A stretch of DNA of 64,000 nucleotides from Natronospira bacteriovora (lineage in GTDB: Bacteria; Pseudomonadota; Gammaproteobacteria; Natronospirales; Natronospiraceae), in NCBI RefSeq assembly GCF_030848495.1, contig NZ_JAVDDT010000001.1, positions 1 through 64,000 of the forward strand, given 5' to 3'. Made by a program: the position numbers and the translations under genes. Of the stretch, positions 23,287 through 31,959 are shown piece by piece. Under the pieces are notes generated by a model. The model had not been told where the DNA came from, did no database searches, and saw only the letters and a program-made list of their open reading frames with translations. The first letter of the stretch is position 1; each line of letters starts with the position of its first letter.

Positions 23287-24606
23287 TCAGCGCTCGAATA
23301 CGGCCATGGCCTCGGCATGGCCGGTATGGGGAAACATGTCCATGATGCCGGCGGCGATCAGGCGGTACCCCTGATCGTTCACCAGCTGGCCGGCATCACG
23401 GGCCAGGGTCGCCGGATGGCAGGAAACATAGACAATTCGTTCCACACCCATCTTCGGCAGCTGCGGGATGATTTCGCGGGCACCACTGCGAGGCGGGTCC
23501 AGCACGGCAAGGCGGTATTCCCGCCGGGCCCAGCTTTCCCGGGTGACATCCTCGAACAGATTGGCTACATGGAAATCCACCCGATCCCCCAGGCCATTGC
23601 GTTCGGCGTTTTCCCGGCCGCGCCCCACCAGGCCGGCTTCTCCTTCGACGGCGGTGACGGTCGAGCCGGCCCTGGCAATGGGCAGGGAAAAGTTCCCCAG
23701 CCCGGAAAACAGATCCAGCACGGTGTCATCCTTGCCGGCGCCCAGCCACTCCAGGGCTTGATCAATCATCTTGCGATTGATCTCGCGATTGATCTGGATG
23801 AAATCGGTGGGCAGAAAGCGAATCTCCACCTGATGGCTGTCCAGGCGATAACTCAGGGGAGGCGCGGCATCACTCAGGGCCGTCACAGTGTCCGGCCCCT
23901 TCGGCTGAAGGTAGATCCAGAAGCCGCTTTCATGCTCGAACTCCGCGAGAAGGCACAGATCCTCATCACTCAATGGGTCCAGATGGCGCAAAACCAGAGC
24001 AATGTCGTCATCTCCCGCCGCCACTTCGATCTGCGGAAGCCGGGCCCGGACAGAAAGACGCCCCACCAGATCCGAAAGGGCCTCGAGACGACCACCCACC
24101 TCCGGTATGAGCACTTCGCACCGATTCATGTCGGTCACGTAGGGAGTCCGCCGCTCACGGAAGCCCACCAGCACCCGTCCCTTCCGCGGTACGTCCTTCA
24201 CGCCCAGACGGGCGCGTCGCCGGTATCCCCATTCCGGGCCAGTCAGGGTCGGCAGCACGGTTTCCGGGGCCACTCCCCCCAGGCGGCGCATCTGGGCCAG
24301 CAGCGCCTGTTGCTTGCTAGTGCGCTGGGATTCGATGGACAGGTGTTGCAGTGCACAACCTCCGCACTGGCCGAAATATTGGCAGCGGGGTTCAATGCGA
24401 TCCGCCGAGGGCGTGAGCACTTCCAGCGTGACACCCTCGTCCCGGTCGCGACGTTTCTTCTCCCGTCGTACGCGCACACGCTCACCGGGCAATGCGCCGT
24501 GGGCAAAGAAGGTCTTGCCGTTCTCGCCGCTGCCCACACCACGTCCGTCGTGAGCCAGATCGCGGATGTCGATTTCAAGTTCCAGCTCGGTCTTTCTGCG
24601 TCCCAC
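23287..24606 (-). CDS. rlmD: 23S rRNA (uracil-1939-C5)-methyltransferase RlmD
   Basis: RlmD methylates U1939 of 23S rRNA using SAM. The protein has an N-terminal TRAM domain, a 4Fe-4S cysteine cluster (CQYFGQCGGCALQH plus an upstream Cys), a Rossmann methyltransferase core (VLDLFSGLGNFSLP) and the catalytic Cys in IVYVSCHPATLARD. No ATG fits the start; I use the GTG at 24606 (439 residues), just after the exonuclease stop. A GTG at 24642 inside that gene is the alternative. Confidence 0.93.
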   Translation of the reverse strand: MGRRKTELELEIDIRDLAHDGRGVGSGENGKTFFAHGALPGERVRVRREKKRRDRDEGVTLEVLTPSADRIEPRCQYFGQCGGCALQHLSIESQRTSKQQALLAQMRRLGGVAPETVLPTLTGPEWGYRRRARLGVKDVPRKGRVLVGFRERRTPYVTDMNRCEVLIPEVGGRLEALSDLVGRLSVRARLPQIEVAAGDDDIALVLRHLDPLSDEDLCLLAEFEHESGFWIYLQPKGPDTVTALSDAAPPLSYRLDSHQVEIRFLPTDFIQINREINRKMIDQALEWLGAGKDDTVLDLFSGLGNFSLPIARAGSTVTAVEGEAGLVGRGRENAERNGLGDRVDFHVANLFEDVTRESWARREYRLAVLDPPRSGAREIIPQLPKMGVERIVYVSCHPATLARDAGQLVNDQGYRLIAAGIMDMFPHTGHAEAMAVFER

Positions 24607-24608
24607 GC

Positions 24609-25403
24609 CTACTGCCCCTGCCAGACCGGCTGGCTGTGCCACTGCTTGAGAAACTGACGAAAATGCTCGCCCTCACTGTCCTTCAGGAACTGGCGAACCC
24701 GTTCCTGTTCTTCCTCATACGCTCCGGCACCCAGGCGACCACGCATGAACTCGAAACGGAGGAACACCAGATAGGTGTTCAGGGCATCCGTCTCGCAGTA
24801 GTCACGCACCGCCCCGATGTCACCTTCCAGGATTCGATCCCAGACCAGACTCCCGTGCATGCCCAGCTTGCCCGGGAGCCCCAGCATCACGGCCACTTCG
24901 TCCAGTTTGGCGGTGGCACGTGCCTGATAGCCCGCCAGCACGTCCATCAGGTCCAGGTGTCGCCAGTGAAAGCGGTTCAGGTAGTTATTGAATCGAAACG
25001 GCTGGGCATTGTCGCCAGTCTCCCAGTAGGTGGGCGCGGCAATGCCGTGATACAGGGCCCGGTAATGCAGCACGGGAAGGTCAAAGCCGGAACCATTCCA
25101 GGAGACCAGGTCCGGCTGAAATCGCTCCAGGCCTTCAAAGAAGCGCGCCACGATCTCTCCCTCACTGGCATCCGCTTCACCCAGTGTCCAGACCTTGAAG
25201 CGGTCTTTCTGGCGCAAAGCCACGGAAATGGCCACGATCCGGTGCAGATGCAGTGGCAGGAAATCACGCCCGCCGGTTTCCTGACGGCGCCGATGCAACA
25301 TGGCCCGGCCTGTGTCGGCATCGTCCAGGTCACCCAGATCCAGAATCCGGCGCCCGGATTCTGTGTCCGGCACCGTCTCGATATCAAATGCGAGTATGTT
25401 CAA
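24609..25403 (-). CDS. Predicted 3'-5' exonuclease, PolB-like DEDDy family
   Basis: This protein has the DEDD exonuclease pattern: FDIETVP at the N-terminus (motif I), LVSWNGSGFDLPVL (motif II) and a C-terminal aspartate motif (YCETDALNTYLVF). It belongs to the family of predicted exonucleases related to the proofreading domain of DNA polymerase B. I start it at a TTG (25403), because GGGAGGA lies just upstream and the fold begins at once (NILAFDIET). This gives 264 residues. It leads the rlmD-CYTH-YkuD-nagZ run. Confidence 0.85.
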   Translation of the reverse strand: MNILAFDIETVPDTESGRRILDLGDLDDADTGRAMLHRRRQETGGRDFLPLHLHRIVAISVALRQKDRFKVWTLGEADASEGEIVARFFEGLERFQPDLVSWNGSGFDLPVLHYRALYHGIAAPTYWETGDNAQPFRFNNYLNRFHWRHLDLMDVLAGYQARATAKLDEVAVMLGLPGKLGMHGSLVWDRILEGDIGAVRDYCETDALNTYLVFLRFEFMRGRLGAGAYEEEQERVRQFLKDSEGEHFRQFLKQWHSQPVWQGQ

Positions 25404-25514
25404 GGCGTCCTCCCGATGATCAGGCGGCAGTGTAGCAAATGACCACCGCCGGTGGATGATTCGCATGCTGACGACCGATCGCCGGGAGACCCGCGCCTGC
25501 CGTTGAATTCCCGC

Positions 25515-25550
25515 CGCTGCCCGGGCCCACAGGCCCACACCCGGGCAGCG
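25515..25550. repeat. GC-rich inverted repeat upstream of the receptor promoter
   Basis: Arms 25515-25525 (CGCTGCCCGGG) and 25540-25550 are perfectly complementary, separated by 14 nt. No T tract follows on either strand, which argues against a simple terminator. The centre lies about 60 bp upstream of the start point predicted for the downstream promoter, a usual place for an activator site, but no regulator is known. Confidence 0.5.
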
Positions 25551-25728: not shown

Positions 25729-27714
25729 ATGTCATTTTCGCGCCGCCATTTCCGGCCAGGCCAATGCCTTGTCGCTCTGACAGTCACCCTGGCGGGGATG
25801 GCCGCCACACCGGGCCTGCAGGCCGACATCCAGCTCCTCACGGAGGATGCCTATCTGGAGGACATGCCACGCATTCTCACCGGCTCCCGACTGAGACAGG
25901 CCACGGGGGACTCCCCGGTCTCGGTCACCGTCATCGACCGGGAGATGATCGAACACTCCGGAGCGCGGGAAATCCAGGAACTGCTCAGGTTGGTGCCCGG
26001 CATGGTGGTGAGTTACACCTTTGGCCACTGGGCATCGGTGACCCCTGGTTTCGGCGCCGAGGGCTATTCCCGTCGTCTGGAAGTCCTGATAGACGGCCGC
26101 AGTGTCTACACACCCAGTTTCGGTGGTGTCCCCTGGGCCGCACTGCCCTACTCCGTCAGCGATATCGAGCGAATCGAAGTGACCCGTGGCCCCAACAGCC
26201 ACGCTTTCGGCACCAATGCCCTGCTGGGCACGATCAACATCATCACACGGGACCCGGCAGACCGGAGCGGTGGTGAATTCGAGGTACTGGCGGGCGATGA
26301 TTTCGTACACCGCCTGCAAGTACGCCAGTTTGGCTCGTCGGAGCGTACGGACTGGAGTCTTTCCGCCGCCCAGTGGGGTGACCACGGCTTTGATTCCCGC
26401 GTTACGGAGTTCGATGGAAAGAGTCACCGTTTCATCAACGGTCAACTGCGGGTGCTGACCGGCCCCTCCAGCCACGTCATGCTGCGCGGCGGATACAACC
26501 GGGGGCGCCATGAGTGGGGTCGCAGCCATCCTGCCTTCGAACCCCCCCGGGAACAGTACTGGCAGATGCACTTCGGGCAGATGAACTGGGAGTATCAGAC
26601 CCAATCCGGCAATCTTCTGGAATTCCGCTTCGATCATAGCGTGGAACGCATCGAAGAGGATTACTACACCCGCCCCCTGCCAGCGCTCGGATTCACCCAG
26701 GTTTACATTGATGAATACCGTAAAAGCCTACGCACGGAGGCGGAACTCCAGCATACCATCGAGGCCGGGGGACGAAGCCGTTTTCTCTGGGGACTCGGCT
26801 GGCGGGAAGATGAAGTTCGCTCACCTCCCGCCTACTTTCCCGATGGCCCGGCCAGCAACACCTTCCTGCGCACTTTTGCGCAAATGGAATGGCAAGCCAC
26901 AGAGCGAATGACATTCAATGCCGGTGCCATGCTGGAAAATGATCAGATCACGGGCACCGATCTGTCACCGCGGCTTGGGCTGAACTTTCACGCCACGCCG
27001 CAGCATACCGTGCGCCTGGCCGCGGCTCGCGCCACTCGGACACCGGTCCTGATCGAGGAAATGGGCGATTGGTCCATTGACATGCCGGTGGATCGCCGTC
27101 AGATCGTCTTCGCCTCGGGTGGGCTGCAACGGGAAACCGTGGACAGCATCGAACTGGGTCATGTCTTCGAGTCCGCCGACGGCCGAATGACCGTGGATAC
27201 TCGTATTCACTATGACGAAATTCGGGACATGATCATGTACCTGGCTGCCCCCTTTCCGGAGGATCCCTACGACGGTTTCGCCATTGATTTTGACAATACC
27301 GATGAGGCCACTGTCCGCGGCCTCGAAACCGAGGTGGAATTCCGACCTACTGTCCATAACCGTTTTCGACTGGCCTATTCCCTGAAAGACATCAGCAGCA
27401 CTGACACGCTCACGGAAATTTCCGAAAGCGGCCCCAGGCACAACATCAGCCTCTTCGGGCTGCACCGCCTGAGCGGACAGACAGAGATCAGTGGTCAGTA
27501 TTTCTATTACAGCGCCTACAACATCATGAATCTGAACGATGGTGTGGAACGCACTCGACGCCTCGACCTGCGTTTGTCACACAGGCTTGATCCACAACCG
27601 GACAGCACAAGGGTCGCTCTGGTCATTCAAAGTGTCCAGGGCACATACGATGACAGTAGGCCACGAAATCGTTTTGACCGTCGCATATTCGGAGAGATCC
27701 GAATCCCATTCTAG
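25729..27714 (+). CDS. TonB-dependent outer membrane receptor
   Basis: This 661-residue protein has a signal peptide (cut near GLQA-D), a plug domain (VSVTVIDREMIEHSGAREIQELLRLVPG, VLIDGRSVY, IERIEVTRGPNSHAFG, GTINIITRDP) and a beta-barrel of about 450 residues ending in Phe (GEIRIPF). Such receptors import siderophores, cobalamin, sugars or other ligands using TonB-ExbBD. I see no obvious TonB box. The ligand cannot be told from sequence. It is followed by a periplasmic binding protein and a hybrid kinase on the same strand, so it may feed a signalling rather than a nutritional route. Confidence 0.93.
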   Translation: MSFSRRHFRPGQCLVALTVTLAGMAATPGLQADIQLLTEDAYLEDMPRILTGSRLRQATGDSPVSVTVIDREMIEHSGAREIQELLRLVPGMVVSYTFGHWASVTPGFGAEGYSRRLEVLIDGRSVYTPSFGGVPWAALPYSVSDIERIEVTRGPNSHAFGTNALLGTINIITRDPADRSGGEFEVLAGDDFVHRLQVRQFGSSERTDWSLSAAQWGDHGFDSRVTEFDGKSHRFINGQLRVLTGPSSHVMLRGGYNRGRHEWGRSHPAFEPPREQYWQMHFGQMNWEYQTQSGNLLEFRFDHSVERIEEDYYTRPLPALGFTQVYIDEYRKSLRTEAELQHTIEAGGRSRFLWGLGWREDEVRSPPAYFPDGPASNTFLRTFAQMEWQATERMTFNAGAMLENDQITGTDLSPRLGLNFHATPQHTVRLAAARATRTPVLIEEMGDWSIDMPVDRRQIVFASGGLQRETVDSIELGHVFESADGRMTVDTRIHYDEIRDMIMYLAAPFPEDPYDGFAIDFDNTDEATVRGLETEVEFRPTVHNRFRLAYSLKDISSTDTLTEISESGPRHNISLFGLHRLSGQTEISGQYFYYSAYNIMNLNDGVERTRRLDLRLSHRLDPQPDSTRVALVIQSVQGTYDDSRPRNRFDRRIFGEIRIPF

Positions 27715-27787
27715 ACACATCGAGTTTAGCGATTTGCGGGACCCAGGAACGGGATCATTGCCCGGAACAAGCAGGAATCATGGAAGA

Positions 27788-28783
27788 ATGAGCAAAGGCC
27801 AAAAGAATCGGCATCAGTTAAAAGACAGAGCCAGGAAGCCTGGCTCTGTCATGGCCCGTTTTACCGCCTTGTGCTGCCTGATGCTGTTCGTCACACCGAT
27901 CTTTGCCGATGACGGTACGGCTCCACACGGCGGACAATCGTTAGCCGTTCTTTTCAGTGACCAGACGCCACCGTATGAGCAGTTCCGGCAAGGCTTTGAG
28001 GAGGAAATGAACGAGAGCCGGCCTTTCAGCCTGTACCAGACTCGCGAGCTGGATCGATCAGCCGCCGATACGCTGCGAGACGAGCCCTTGATCATTGCAG
28101 TCGGGGCCAGTGCAACCCGATGGGCCCTTGAGAACAGCACGGCTGATGTGTTCGCTACCATGGTTCCCGCGGACAGCATCGAGCAGCTGGGCAAGCGCTT
28201 TCCGGAGCGAAAGCTGCATGCCCTGTACATTGACCAGGCCCCATACCGGCATATGGCGCTGATGCGATCGTCCCTGCCCGATGCCGAGAGAATCACCCTT
28301 CTGTGCAGGGATCCGCAACCTGCCCGCCTGGAAGCGCTGATGGCAGCAGCCGACAGACTGGATCTGAAACTGGAGTTCCGTCAGGTACGAAACCGTTCCG
28401 AGATCATACGCGCGGTCCAGGCAGTGCATCGCGAAACCGATGCCTTCATCGTACTCCCGGCCAGCGAAGCCATGGGGCCAGCGGACCTGCGCGCCTTGTT
28501 GCTACACAGTTTCAGAACGGGGGTGCCCGTATTCGGATACTCCCCGGGCCTGGTGTCGGCCGGCACCATCGCCGCCATTCACTCCAATCCGCAGTCACTC
28601 GGGCGGGAAACCGCCCGTAAATTCAAGGGACTACAGAACAGTCAAGCGCCGAGATGGGCCAGTTCCACTTTCCCCGTACACTATGATCTGACTATCAACC
28701 GCGAGGTCGCACGGTCGCTCGGCATCCCTCTACCGTCCGAATCTGCACTCCGGCAGGCAATTGACAGCATGGAGACCCGGTAA
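27788..28783 (+). CDS. Periplasmic ABC-type substrate-binding protein without cognate transporter
   Basis: The mature part fits the type I periplasmic-binding-protein-like family of orphan ABC substrate-binding proteins (PF04392 type): SLAVLFSDQTPPYEQFRQGF, LIIAVGASATRWAL, FPERKLHALYIDQAP, DAFIVLPASEAMGP and VPVFGYSPGLVSAGTIAAI. A clear signal peptide starts at MARFTALCCLMLF (ATG 27851). The ATG at 27788 would add a basic 21-residue leader. I report the longer form because a perfect hairpin abuts the inner ATG. No permease or ATPase gene is nearby. The stop overlaps the kinase start (TAATG). Confidence 0.82.
   Translation: MSKGQKNRHQLKDRARKPGSVMARFTALCCLMLFVTPIFADDGTAPHGGQSLAVLFSDQTPPYEQFRQGFEEEMNESRPFSLYQTRELDRSAADTLRDEPLIIAVGASATRWALENSTADVFATMVPADSIEQLGKRFPERKLHALYIDQAPYRHMALMRSSLPDAERITLLCRDPQPARLEALMAAADRLDLKLEFRQVRNRSEIIRAVQAVHRETDAFIVLPASEAMGPADLRALLLHSFRTGVPVFGYSPGLVSAGTIAAIHSNPQSLGRETARKFKGLQNSQAPRWASSTFPVHYDLTINREVARSLGIPLPSESALRQAIDSMETR
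27824..27850 (+). repeat. Perfect 12-bp hairpin abutting the inner start codon of the binding protein gene
   Basis: Arms 27824-27835 (GACAGAGCCAGG) and 27839-27850 pair perfectly around a 3-nt AAG loop, and the next base is the A of ATG 27851. AAA precedes the stem, but no T run follows. The AGGA that could serve as ribosome-binding site is buried in the stem-loop. It may act as an attenuator or as a block on initiation at the inner ATG. Confidence 0.6.
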
Positions 28784-31542
28784 TGCGCCTTCGGCTCCGA
28801 ACCCAGATTCTCCTGATCGCGCTACTGCCAACGGCGCTGGTTGCGTTTGTCATTGGTGGCTATCTGCTGATGACGAGAGTCGCTGACCTGCATGAATCAC
28901 AGATTCGACTTGGAGAAACCATTGCGGAACACCTGGCCCCGGCGAGTGAATTTGCCGTGCTCTCCGGCGATCGGCGTGTTCTTGAACGCCTCACGAACCA
29001 GCTCGTGCAAAAGGACAATGTCTGGCAGGTCAGTATCTATGATGCTGAAGATCGTCTGCTGGCCGAGGCCACAAGCTCGCTGGAGAAGTCCGATGTCCCG
29101 GGATGGATAGGCTGGTTTTATCCGGGCTCATCCGAACGACTGCTCTTTGAGGCCCCCATTGAGATTGCCGACGACCCAATCGGGGATTTTGAAGGTCTGT
29201 TCAGCGATCCGGAGACCGCTGCGACGAATGATGCCGTGATCGGCAGGGTCGTTGTGGAGCTCTCATCCCAGCCCCTGCAGAGCCGGCAGGCCGAAGTGCT
29301 CCGATTCGGCAGCCTGCTGATTCTTGTCGGCCTGATAATCGCCTTCGCCCTCGCTACCCGGGCCGGCTTGAATATCGTTCGCCCCATCAACAATGTGGTT
29401 CAGGCATTTCGCCAGTTCGGAAACGGCGACCTGAATACGCGCGTCTCCGTGCAATCTCGTGGTGAAACCGCGCTCCTTGAACAGGGCTTCAATGACCTTG
29501 CCGCGGAAATCCAGACATCTCGCGAACGGATGGAGGCCGAAATCGAGCAGGCCACATCCGAACTGCAGGAAACCCTGGAAGCGGTGGAGATCCAGAATGT
29601 GGAACTGGATCTGGCCAGAAAACGGGCTGAAGAATCGAATCGCATCAAGTCCGAGTTCCTGGCCAACATCAGCCACGAAATCAGAACCCCAATGAACGCC
29701 ATATTCGGCTATACCCAGCTTCTGGCGCGGACAACGGCCAATGACAGCCAGAAGGACTACATACAGACAATCCAGCGGTCCGCCGAATCCCTGCTGGCCC
29801 TGCTTGAGGATGTACTCAATCTCTCACGCATCGAAGCCGGACGCGTTGAAGTGGACAACAACCCCTTCAGCCCGGAAGCCTTGTTCGAGGAACTCATCAC
29901 CATCATGGCCCCAGCGGCGCATGAGAAGGGCCTCGATCTCCTCTGGTGCCCGGAAAGCCCCTTGCCGAGTCAGGTTCATGGGGATGCAGTCAAACTCCGC
30001 CAGATTGTCAGCAACCTGCTCTCCAATGCCTGCAAGTTCACGGACCAGGGCAGCGTGTCACTGAAGGCTCGCGTCGAATCGAAGGCCGAGGGCCGTGGCT
30101 GGCTGGTGGTGAAGGTTGAGGATACCGGCATAGGCATCAGAGACTCAGACCTTCCACGCCTCTTCCAGGCTTTCACTCAACTGGACAGCTCAAGCTCAAG
30201 ACGCCATCAGGGCGCCGGTCTTGGCCTTGTCATCTGCGACCAGCTCAGCCGGCTAATGGGCGGGAATATCCATGTTGATAGCCAGGCCGGTGTGGGCAGT
30301 ACATTCAGTGTGCACATTCCGCTCGATGCGATCGAGCATGCCGATGGCAACGCTCAGATCATCCCGCCAATACTCGTTCAGGCTCAGGATAAGAGCATCG
30401 CATCCAGCCTTGCCGGACGTCTGACCCAAATCGGTGGCCGGATTCTGGAGCCCTCGGTGGCCGATGACAAACCCGGGCCAAAAGATGCCGGGAAGGGAGA
30501 CGACGCCCCTCTGCTGCTGATCGGTCTGAGTCGCCGGGAAGTCGTGGCAATGATTCGGGGAGATGCATCATTGCCTGGCCTGCAGAAGCTTCCAGAGGGT
30601 TTCCGTACAAGCGTGGTGCTTGCCAGCACCCAGGACAGCATCGAACTGGAATCATTGAGAACACGGCTGGGTGCGCCCTGCCTGCCGATGACCTGTTCCC
30701 GCTCCCTGCTTGAGAAGACGCTCGCGGCCGCGAAGGATGAACAGGCGGACACCCTGCCGGTAGCATTGCTTGGCGAAGAAATCAGCGAACAGAGTCACCT
30801 TTCGGGCCTTCGCCTGATGGTGGTCGAGGACAACCGGATCAATCGTCACCTTACCACGGAGTTTCTCGAATCCGCCGGCGCCAGCGTCCGCGCTGCAGTG
30901 GACGGGCATGATGCGCTCGACATTGCCGCGCAATGGAAGCCGGATGCAGTGCTCATGGATATCCAGCTTCCCGACATGGATGGCCTCGAGACCAGTCAAC
31001 GGCTGCGCAAGGGCTTCGGCTATGACAGGATTCCCATTCTTGCATTGACCGCCAGCGCCAGCGAGGAAGAACATCGCCGATGCCTGAGGGGTGGACTGGA
31101 TGCTGTCCTGGTCAAGCCGGTTCGCGCCGAAACCCTGATCAGTCGCGTTCGACGGGCCATCGAGGACTACGCGGAAGAAACACCCACCAGTGAAACACCC
31201 GAGACCACACTCCCCCGGAAAACAAGCAGGCAACCCATGGGGCGAGATGCTTCCGGAAAACTGAGAGCGGATATTGCCGACATGGTGGCCAGTGACTTGC
31301 CGTCGCAGTTGTCCACGGCCAGGACTTTCCTGGAGAAAGGCGACCTCAAGGGGCTGGATTCTGAAGTTCACACCATCAAGGGTACAGCCGCATTCTGTGG
31401 TTTCCCGGATCTTCAGGCCGCATGCGAAGCCATTCGACTGGCCATCGCCGAGACGCGGGCCAACCCGGACGGGCATCTGGAAACGCTCATGGAAACGCTT
31501 GAGCGGGAGGCTCAACAAGTTCTTGATGAGCTCAAGGGTTGA
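28783..31542 (+). CDS. barA: BarA/GacS-type tripartite hybrid sensor histidine kinase
   Basis: At 919 residues it matches BarA (918 in E. coli). Order: membrane segment (about 8-30), periplasmic domain (about 31-175), second membrane segment (about 176-196), HAMP, coiled coil (EIQNVELDLARKRAEESNRIKSEFL), HisKA with His298, ATPase (N box NLLSNACKF, DTGIGI, GAGLGL), a middle region lacking receiver acidic residues, a true receiver with Asp726 (MDIQLPDMDG), and an HPt domain with His863 (HTIKGTAAFCG). BarA/GacS drives UvrY/GacA and the Csr/Rsm small RNAs. Here it is the third gene of an operon with a receptor and a binding protein, which is unusual. Confidence 0.88.
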   Translation: MRLRLRTQILLIALLPTALVAFVIGGYLLMTRVADLHESQIRLGETIAEHLAPASEFAVLSGDRRVLERLTNQLVQKDNVWQVSIYDAEDRLLAEATSSLEKSDVPGWIGWFYPGSSERLLFEAPIEIADDPIGDFEGLFSDPETAATNDAVIGRVVVELSSQPLQSRQAEVLRFGSLLILVGLIIAFALATRAGLNIVRPINNVVQAFRQFGNGDLNTRVSVQSRGETALLEQGFNDLAAEIQTSRERMEAEIEQATSELQETLEAVEIQNVELDLARKRAEESNRIKSEFLANISHEIRTPMNAIFGYTQLLARTTANDSQKDYIQTIQRSAESLLALLEDVLNLSRIEAGRVEVDNNPFSPEALFEELITIMAPAAHEKGLDLLWCPESPLPSQVHGDAVKLRQIVSNLLSNACKFTDQGSVSLKARVESKAEGRGWLVVKVEDTGIGIRDSDLPRLFQAFTQLDSSSSRRHQGAGLGLVICDQLSRLMGGNIHVDSQAGVGSTFSVHIPLDAIEHADGNAQIIPPILVQAQDKSIASSLAGRLTQIGGRILEPSVADDKPGPKDAGKGDDAPLLLIGLSRREVVAMIRGDASLPGLQKLPEGFRTSVVLASTQDSIELESLRTRLGAPCLPMTCSRSLLEKTLAAAKDEQADTLPVALLGEEISEQSHLSGLRLMVVEDNRINRHLTTEFLESAGASVRAAVDGHDALDIAAQWKPDAVLMDIQLPDMDGLETSQRLRKGFGYDRIPILALTASASEEEHRRCLRGGLDAVLVKPVRAETLISRVRRAIEDYAEETPTSETPETTLPRKTSRQPMGRDASGKLRADIADMVASDLPSQLSTARTFLEKGDLKGLDSEVHTIKGTAAFCGFPDLQAACEAIRLAIAETRANPDGHLETLMETLEREAQQVLDELKG

Positions 31543-31545
31543 ATG

Positions 31546-31959
31546 TCATCCGGCGGGCCGCCGCAACATCACCGCAAATGCCACGATCAGGCCCGCCTCA
31601 TCGGTCAGGCTGATCTCGGCCTGACCTGCGCCGCGCTCGCGGCGCAAGGCATCGGCCTTGTCCGAGAAGATGGCGAATGGCTTTCCGGAGACTTCCTGGC
31701 AGCAACCCACGTCACGCAACCACATCCCCTGCCGGAACCCGGTACCGAGCGCCTTCACCAGTGCTTCCTTGGCTGCAAATCGCATTGCCAGATAGCGGAC
31801 CGGGCGTTTGCTGCGGGCAAACTCTTCCAGCTCCCCAGGCATGAGAAGGTGATCGACCAGCCGATCCCCCCAACGCTCGTAAGCGCGCTCAATACGCCGG
31901 ATCTCCACCAGATCCGTTCCAACGCCGAAGAGACCGGGAATCTGCTCAGCGGCCTTCAT
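31546..31959 (-). CDS. acpS: Holo-[acyl-carrier-protein] synthase
   Basis: AcpS transfers 4'-phosphopantetheine from CoA to acyl carrier protein. The 137-residue protein has the family motifs GVGTDLVEIRRIE near the N-terminus and RYLAMRFAAKEALVKALGTG in the middle. It follows pdxJ with a one-base start/stop overlap, the classical pdxJ-acpS arrangement. It converges on the kinase gene with only 3 bp between the two stop codons and no terminator visible. Confidence 0.95.
   Translation of the reverse strand: MKAAEQIPGLFGVGTDLVEIRRIERAYERWGDRLVDHLLMPGELEEFARSKRPVRYLAMRFAAKEALVKALGTGFRQGMWLRDVGCCQEVSGKPFAIFSDKADALRRERGAGQAEISLTDEAGLIVAFAVMLRRPAG

Follow-up and report, generated by a model that had tools for sequence, protein, structure and literature searches.

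BarA/GacS controls the global Csr/Rsm switch, but little is known of the signal it responds to in nature (PMC7695008, PMC8639471). In the window analyzed here, a 64,000-nucleotide stretch of Natronospira bacteriovora DNA, the gene for a BarA/GacS-type kinase directly follows those for a TonB-dependent outer-membrane receptor (TBDR) and a type I-fold periplasmic binding protein (PBP), which raises the question of whether the three proteins act in a single sensory pathway and how widely such an arrangement occurs. The conservation of this trio across many gammaproteobacteria suggests that BarA usually gets its signal via a protein dedicated to capturing it, which is missing from E. coli. We consider it likely that the TBDR, the PBP and the single Cache (sCache) domain of the kinase form a relay across the cell envelope that feeds the BarA/UvrY/Csr pathway.

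Organization of the locus

The TBDR (661 amino acids; positions 25729 to 27714) consists of a plug (PF07715) and a barrel (PF00593), the PBP (27788 to 28783) falls into Pfam family PF04392 (ABC_sub_bind), and the 919-residue hybrid histidine kinase (28783 to 31542) is assigned to the BarA/GacS type by NCBIfam model NF008318 (BarA) and by synteny with the E. coli barA locus. All three genes lie on the plus strand. Within the kinase, Pfam places an sCache_4 periplasmic sensor domain at residues 31 to 166 (PF09984; 28873 to 29280), followed by HAMP (PF00672; 29371 to 29514), HisKA (PF00512; 29647 to 29841), HATPase_c (PF02518; 29980 to 30327), a receiver domain (Response_reg, PF00072; 30817 to 31152) and Hpt (PF01627; 31276 to 31524), and this order, sCache-HAMP-HisKA-HATPase-REC-Hpt, is that of BarA/GacS. 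On one side of the trio are rlmD (rumA; 23287 to 24642, minus strand), which stands beside barA in E. coli and is conserved next to the trio, and, between rlmD and the trio, a gene that we read from its sequence as 3'-5' exonuclease-like (24609 to 25538, minus strand) and whose position is conserved. On the other side, acpS (31546 to 31959, minus strand), also conserved in position, forms a convergent boundary and is followed by pdxJ, recO, era, rnc and lepB. Both flanking genes lie on the minus strand, and the trio is thus the entire plus-strand unit.

The gene order, direction and spacings given in a preliminary description of this locus hold. The PBP stop and the kinase start overlap by one base (TAATG, 28781 to 28785), and the gap between TBDR and PBP measures 73 bp from the ATG at 27788 or 136 bp from an inner ATG at 27851; the inner start yields a precursor of 310 amino acids with a clean predicted signal peptide (MARFTALCCLMLFVTPIFA; 27851 to 27907, plus strand). 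Ahead of the inner ATG, and ending right before it, lies a perfect inverted repeat (27824 to 27850; 12-bp arms, 3-base loop), which is not visible at the same junction in the two other Natronospira genomes. This hairpin is terminator-like on the minus strand only. The loop region carries an AGGAAG that could be a ribosome-binding site and might control PBP translation.

Conservation of the trio

A search of 56 related genomes for the PBP found a match in 14, with the TBDR before and a BarA-like kinase after it at most of these loci; several of the genomes (G001, G002, G005, G009, G016 and others) hold the trio between rlmD/exonuclease and acpS-pdxJ-recO-era, as in the window. A profile built from 27 PBPs and run on 369 species genomes of the class matched in 99 of them; the matches fell visibly into a high-scoring subfamily on the one hand and weak PF04392 relatives on the other. 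We defined the PBP subfamily as the genome-sampled loci with a PBP score of at least 140 bits (n = 72). Among these 72 loci, which were partly fetched for holding PBP or BarA matches so that all fractions are conditional on that choice, 67 have a sensor protein directly downstream of the PBP, 52 have directly upstream of it a TBDR, always of the one subfamily, and 49 have both. We count 40 family codes with PBP-sensor pairs, 29 with trios and 14 with kinase trios at the rlmD/acpS locus; the trio is therefore not restricted to close relatives. Such a restriction would have told against the relay first suggested for it. The junctions are tight as well: of 134 PBP stops, 93 overlap the next start by 4 bp (NTGA) and 5 by 1 bp. 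The arrangement is more than chance, and the unit is kept in dozens of families.

Some loci depart from the standard order. In 18 of the 67 PBP-sensor pairs there is no TBDR directly upstream, some of these loci being truncated by contig ends. Locus L043 (7351 to 11830) has the order BarA-PBP without a TBDR at the rlmD-pdxJ locus, and L048 (4184 to 10311) has TBDR-BarA-PBP away from it. At L030 (6346 to 13136), the rlmD/acpS locus of a complete genome, the TBDR is spread over several frames and the kinase over two around an intact PBP frame, which may reflect module decay under way or sequencing errors. In L127, L128 and L144 (Motiliproteus, Cycloclasticus), two to three tandem TBDRs of the same subfamily precede a single PBP and a single kinase, an arrangement in which several receptors might feed one sensor. 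TBDRs of this subfamily also occur with no PBP nearby (L084, L085, L091, L096, L113, L135), and their neighbors might hint at the ligand class. We also sought natural PBP-kinase fusions via long open frames, but the frames examined proved to be overlapping open frames.

The kinase and the place of PBP-linked sensors among BarA proteins

Several lines of evidence bear on the identity of the kinase. Its best match among 164 NCBIfam models is NF008318 (BarA), with 579 bits over residues 3 to 913; this is below the cut-off of 890, a naming cut-off that does not define the wider orthologue group. It is the one BarA-like kinase in the N. bacteriovora genome at an E value of 1e-30, and the trio holds the position beside rlmD that barA has in E. 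coli. The genome further encodes a UvrY orthologue (51% identity), located upstream of uvrC with one gene between, as well as a single CsrA. In E. coli, BarA signals to UvrY and thereby to the Csr system. A pattern search for GacA upstream sites gave one near match, compared to two with the reversed-pattern control. Because of the rlmD synteny, the sole BarA-like kinase, the UvrY with its uvrC synteny and the presence of CsrA, we regard orthology of the kinase with E. coli BarA as most likely; the preliminary description had left open whether it is the true BarA/GacS.

Starting from E. coli BarA instead of the PBP, we ran its residues 1 to 261 against the 369 species genomes and found matches in 94. 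Of the 85 matches that include the N terminus, 60 have a PBP ending at most 400 bp upstream. Across the 369 genomes, PBP and sensor occur together in 61, the PBP alone in 12, the sensor alone in 22 and neither in 274 (Fisher P ∼ 1e-38, a statistic that ignores ancestry). The PBP-linked module is the common state among the BarA-type sensors sampled, a generality that goes beyond the preliminary description. No PF04392 protein was found in E. coli in a control search. In an unrooted tree of the kinase core, the PBP-less BarAs, including that of E. coli, lie among the PBP-linked ones, with 11 label changes compared to 16.4 in shuffles. Judging from the spread of PBP-linked BarAs and their common locus, the lack of a PBP, as in E. 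coli BarA, is probably derived; the unrooted tree itself cannot separate gain from loss. We go further only tentatively, and give slightly less than even weight to the reading that ancestral BarA/GacS did not sense metabolites directly but formed the last, kinase step of a TBDR-PBP-Cache relay, and that the model organisms in which its signal has been looked for (E. coli, probably Pseudomonas and Legionella too) come from lineages that lost the PBP. If it is true, identifying what these TBDR/PBP pairs bind could reveal the natural Gac signal.

Coupling between the binding protein and the sensor domain

We compared pairwise divergences over 84 trios and assessed them with 200 permutations. PBP divergence correlates with that of the periplasmic domain (rho = 0.48), and the correlation persists with the kinase core held constant (0.45; 0 of 200 permutations). 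The correlation with the kinase core is lower (0.20) and falls to 0.04 once the periplasmic domain is controlled for (58 of 200 permutations). Changes in the PBP go with changes in the periplasmic domain, then, and not with those in the kinase core of the same protein. The divergence of the TBDR is correlated with that of the PBP and also with that of the periplasmic domain, and in the latter case a correlation of 0.31 is left with kinase core and PBP held constant (0 of 200 permutations).

The AlphaFold2 model of the sensor (pLDDT 89.9) is a single Cache domain whose fold neighbors in the PDB are CdgS9, CitA and DcuS. At a helix break (residues 54/56) where the long helix coming out of the membrane gives way to the following one, estimated from helix length to be ∼35 Å from the membrane, the model places the motif ASEFAVLSGD (residues 54 to 63; 28942 to 28971, plus strand), which corresponds to the family consensus ASEYGxFSGN. 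This consensus is enriched in PBP-linked sensors, histidine kinases and GGDEF proteins alike, and is weak in PBP-less BarAs. The link between motif and PBP is confounded by ancestry; on independent pairs it runs in the same direction in nearly all that differ, but only about 3 of 6 do (P = 0.25), and the comparison is underpowered. We propose residues 54 to 63 as a candidate docking or relay site for the PBP. The acetate pocket of E. coli BarA includes Thr98 and Ile136 (PMC8639471), and the corresponding residues in the window kinase are E95 and E127; PBP-linked sensors as a group do not share the E. coli BarA pocket residues or the histidines of GacS.

The type I fold that had been read from the PBP sequence is borne out by its AlphaFold2 model (pLDDT 91.2), which is two-lobed over residues 27 to 301. 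Its nearest PDB structures are CD0873 (6hnj, Z = 23.6), a Vibrio cholerae protein (3lkv, 21.6) and TrpX with L-Trp (3lft, 21.0), and LuxP, TorT and XylFII complexes are also among the matches. Three loops, LDQPxxR, PDPxxxN and GFSxAYVxAGA, are conserved in the subfamily. The Natronospira PBP has diverged in the PDPxxxN loop (D204 to A and N209 to G), and its ligand may therefore differ from that of the rest of the subfamily. The nearest NCBIfam family of the TBDR is NF053590 (TOL_0244; 185 bits against a cut-off of 645), and Pfam finds in it plug and barrel only, with no N-terminal signaling domain.

One sensory input with several outputs

A scan of named genomes with a TBDR profile gave 80 loci, 62 of which carry the PBP, followed by a sensor in 57 of the 62. 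The output domains of these sensors vary. In Gammaproteobacteria (Thiohalobacter, Sedimenticola, Motiliproteus and Cycloclasticus), we find HK-REC-Hpt; HK-REC is largely a betaproteobacterial form (Rhodoferax, Rhodocyclales), and Undibacterium, Azonexus, Thiohalobacter and others have sensors with GGDEF or GGDEF-EAL. Pfam assigns an sCache_4-HAMP input to all of the 7 examples with differing outputs. Since the same input is joined to GGDEF or GGDEF-EAL proteins in other bacteria, TBDR-PBP-sCache is a portable input module that is attached to kinases and to GGDEF/GGDEF-EAL proteins. Off the rlmD locus, several module copies (L023, L025, L027, L048, L051, L155 and L161) have a LuxR-type response regulator of ∼220 to 235 amino acids directly upstream. 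More distant PF04392 proteins stand beside GGDEF-EAL proteins with no TBDR in L198, L201, L202 and L203, a possible further pairing of a binding protein with c-di-GMP signaling.

Proposed relay and alternative explanations

In the relay that we favor, the TBDR would, judging from its family, bring a ligand that is scarce outside the cell through the outer membrane, and the PBP, with its predicted TrpX-like fold and no transporter, would capture it in the periplasm. Loaded or empty, the PBP would then dock on the sCache domain of BarA, probably near the kink of the first helix, as the co-evolution and the PBP-linked motif suggest. From there the signal would pass through HAMP and the HisKA-REC-Hpt phosphorelay to UvrY and on to CsrA, components that are all encoded in the genome and whose wiring we take from E. 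coli. Several observations count against the relay, among them the 73- to 136-bp gap with its hairpin between TBDR and PBP in N. bacteriovora, the kinase score under the BarA cut-off, the confounding of the motif link by ancestry and the diverged loop of the Natronospira PBP. We are less sure of the role of the receptor than of that of the PBP because the TBDR is absent from about one-fourth of the loci and has decayed in L030, where PBP and BarA are kept.

These same loci, together with the tandem TBDRs before the PBP in L127, L128 and L144, favor an alternative in which the PBP partners the BarA sCache domain and the TBDR is a separate, co-regulated nutrient importer, the ligand entering via porins or being periplasmic. 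We regard this as unlikely given that TBDRs of a single subfamily lie directly upstream in 52 of 72 loci and that the TBDR correlates with the periplasmic domain beyond what kinase core and PBP account for. It is improbable that the Cache pocket of this BarA itself binds a small carboxylate as the signal, the mode proposed for E. coli, with the PBP as a modulator or bystander. The related folds of CitA and DcuS and the response of E. coli BarA to acetate and formate (PMC8639471) fit such direct sensing, but the pocket residues named for E. coli BarA or for GacS are conserved neither in the window nor across PBP-linked sensors, and no bystander would stay in place in 40 families or vary together with the periplasmic domain.

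That the kinase is a BarA paralogue recruited to the cluster, and not the orthologue feeding UvrY/Csr, would fit its score under the NCBIfam equivalog cut-off and the module copies away from rlmD, which often come with a LuxR-type regulator of their own (L023, L025, L051). This is rather improbable in view of the rlmD-barA synteny, the lack of a second BarA-like kinase at an E value of 1e-30, the nesting of E. coli BarA among trio kinases in the core tree and the presence of UvrY and CsrA. PF04392 proteins do occur with a permease and an ATPase, as in the ordinary operon PF04392-PF02653-ABC_tran at L204, so that the PBP might serve an ABC importer encoded elsewhere, with the kinase regulating uptake. 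In line with the preliminary description, however, no permease or ATPase lies near the trio. Nor did an importer partner turn up elsewhere, which would also have told against the relay first suggested: the 2.998-Mb genome (97% complete) encodes a single PF04392 protein and, at that completeness, no PF02653 permease, a family present in 12 of 14 control genomes, and an ABC ATPase lies within 4.5 kb of the PBP at 1 of the 72 loci, on the opposite strand. The importer explanation is largely refuted, and we give it very little probability.

If most BarA-type kinases have a PBP and an outer-membrane receptor, their ligand becomes a tractable biochemical question. If the relay is real, beta- and gammaproteobacteria use one sensory input for two-component as well as c-di-GMP outputs, and a TBDR feeds a signaling protein instead of a transport protein.

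Comparison with known systems

In open-access PMC papers we found neither a TBDR-PF04392-sCache module nor a BarA/GacS binding protein described, and TonB is not mentioned in a review of GacS (PMC7695008) or in the E. coli BarA paper (PMC8639471). Binding protein-coupled sensor kinases are known from XylFII-LytS, TorT-TorS and LuxP-LuxQ (PMC6321045). The module resembles these in combining a type I-fold PBP with the periplasmic domain of a membrane sensor kinase, the action of the PBP on the sensor being our proposal here, and differs from them in its PF04392 PBP, its BarA-type single Cache domain, the dedicated TBDR ahead and the interchangeable HK or GGDEF/EAL outputs. With BarA/UvrY and GacS/GacA it shares the full domain architecture, the rlmD-linked locus and the presence of UvrY and CsrA in the genome, whereas the TBDR and PBP genes in one apparent operon with the kinase, and the lack of conservation of the acetate pocket and the GacS histidine pair, set it apart.

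NspS/MbaA and ScrB/ScrC are systems that link a binding protein to c-di-GMP. Like the module variants of beta- and gammaproteobacteria, they pair a binding protein with a GGDEF-EAL protein; the variants described here differ in the PBP family, in the presence of a TBDR and in the BarA-type sCache sensor. Activation of kinases and diguanylate cyclases by solute-binding proteins is regarded as widespread (PMC9602780). The PBP belongs with TrpXYZ-type ABC importers in family and fold (3lft, 6hnj) but comes without permease and ATPase. Finally, the TonB-dependent transducers FecA and FpvA also couple a TBDR to gene regulation; in contrast to these, the TBDR of the trio has neither an N-terminal signaling domain nor an adjacent sigma/anti-sigma pair, and its signal would pass via a soluble PBP.
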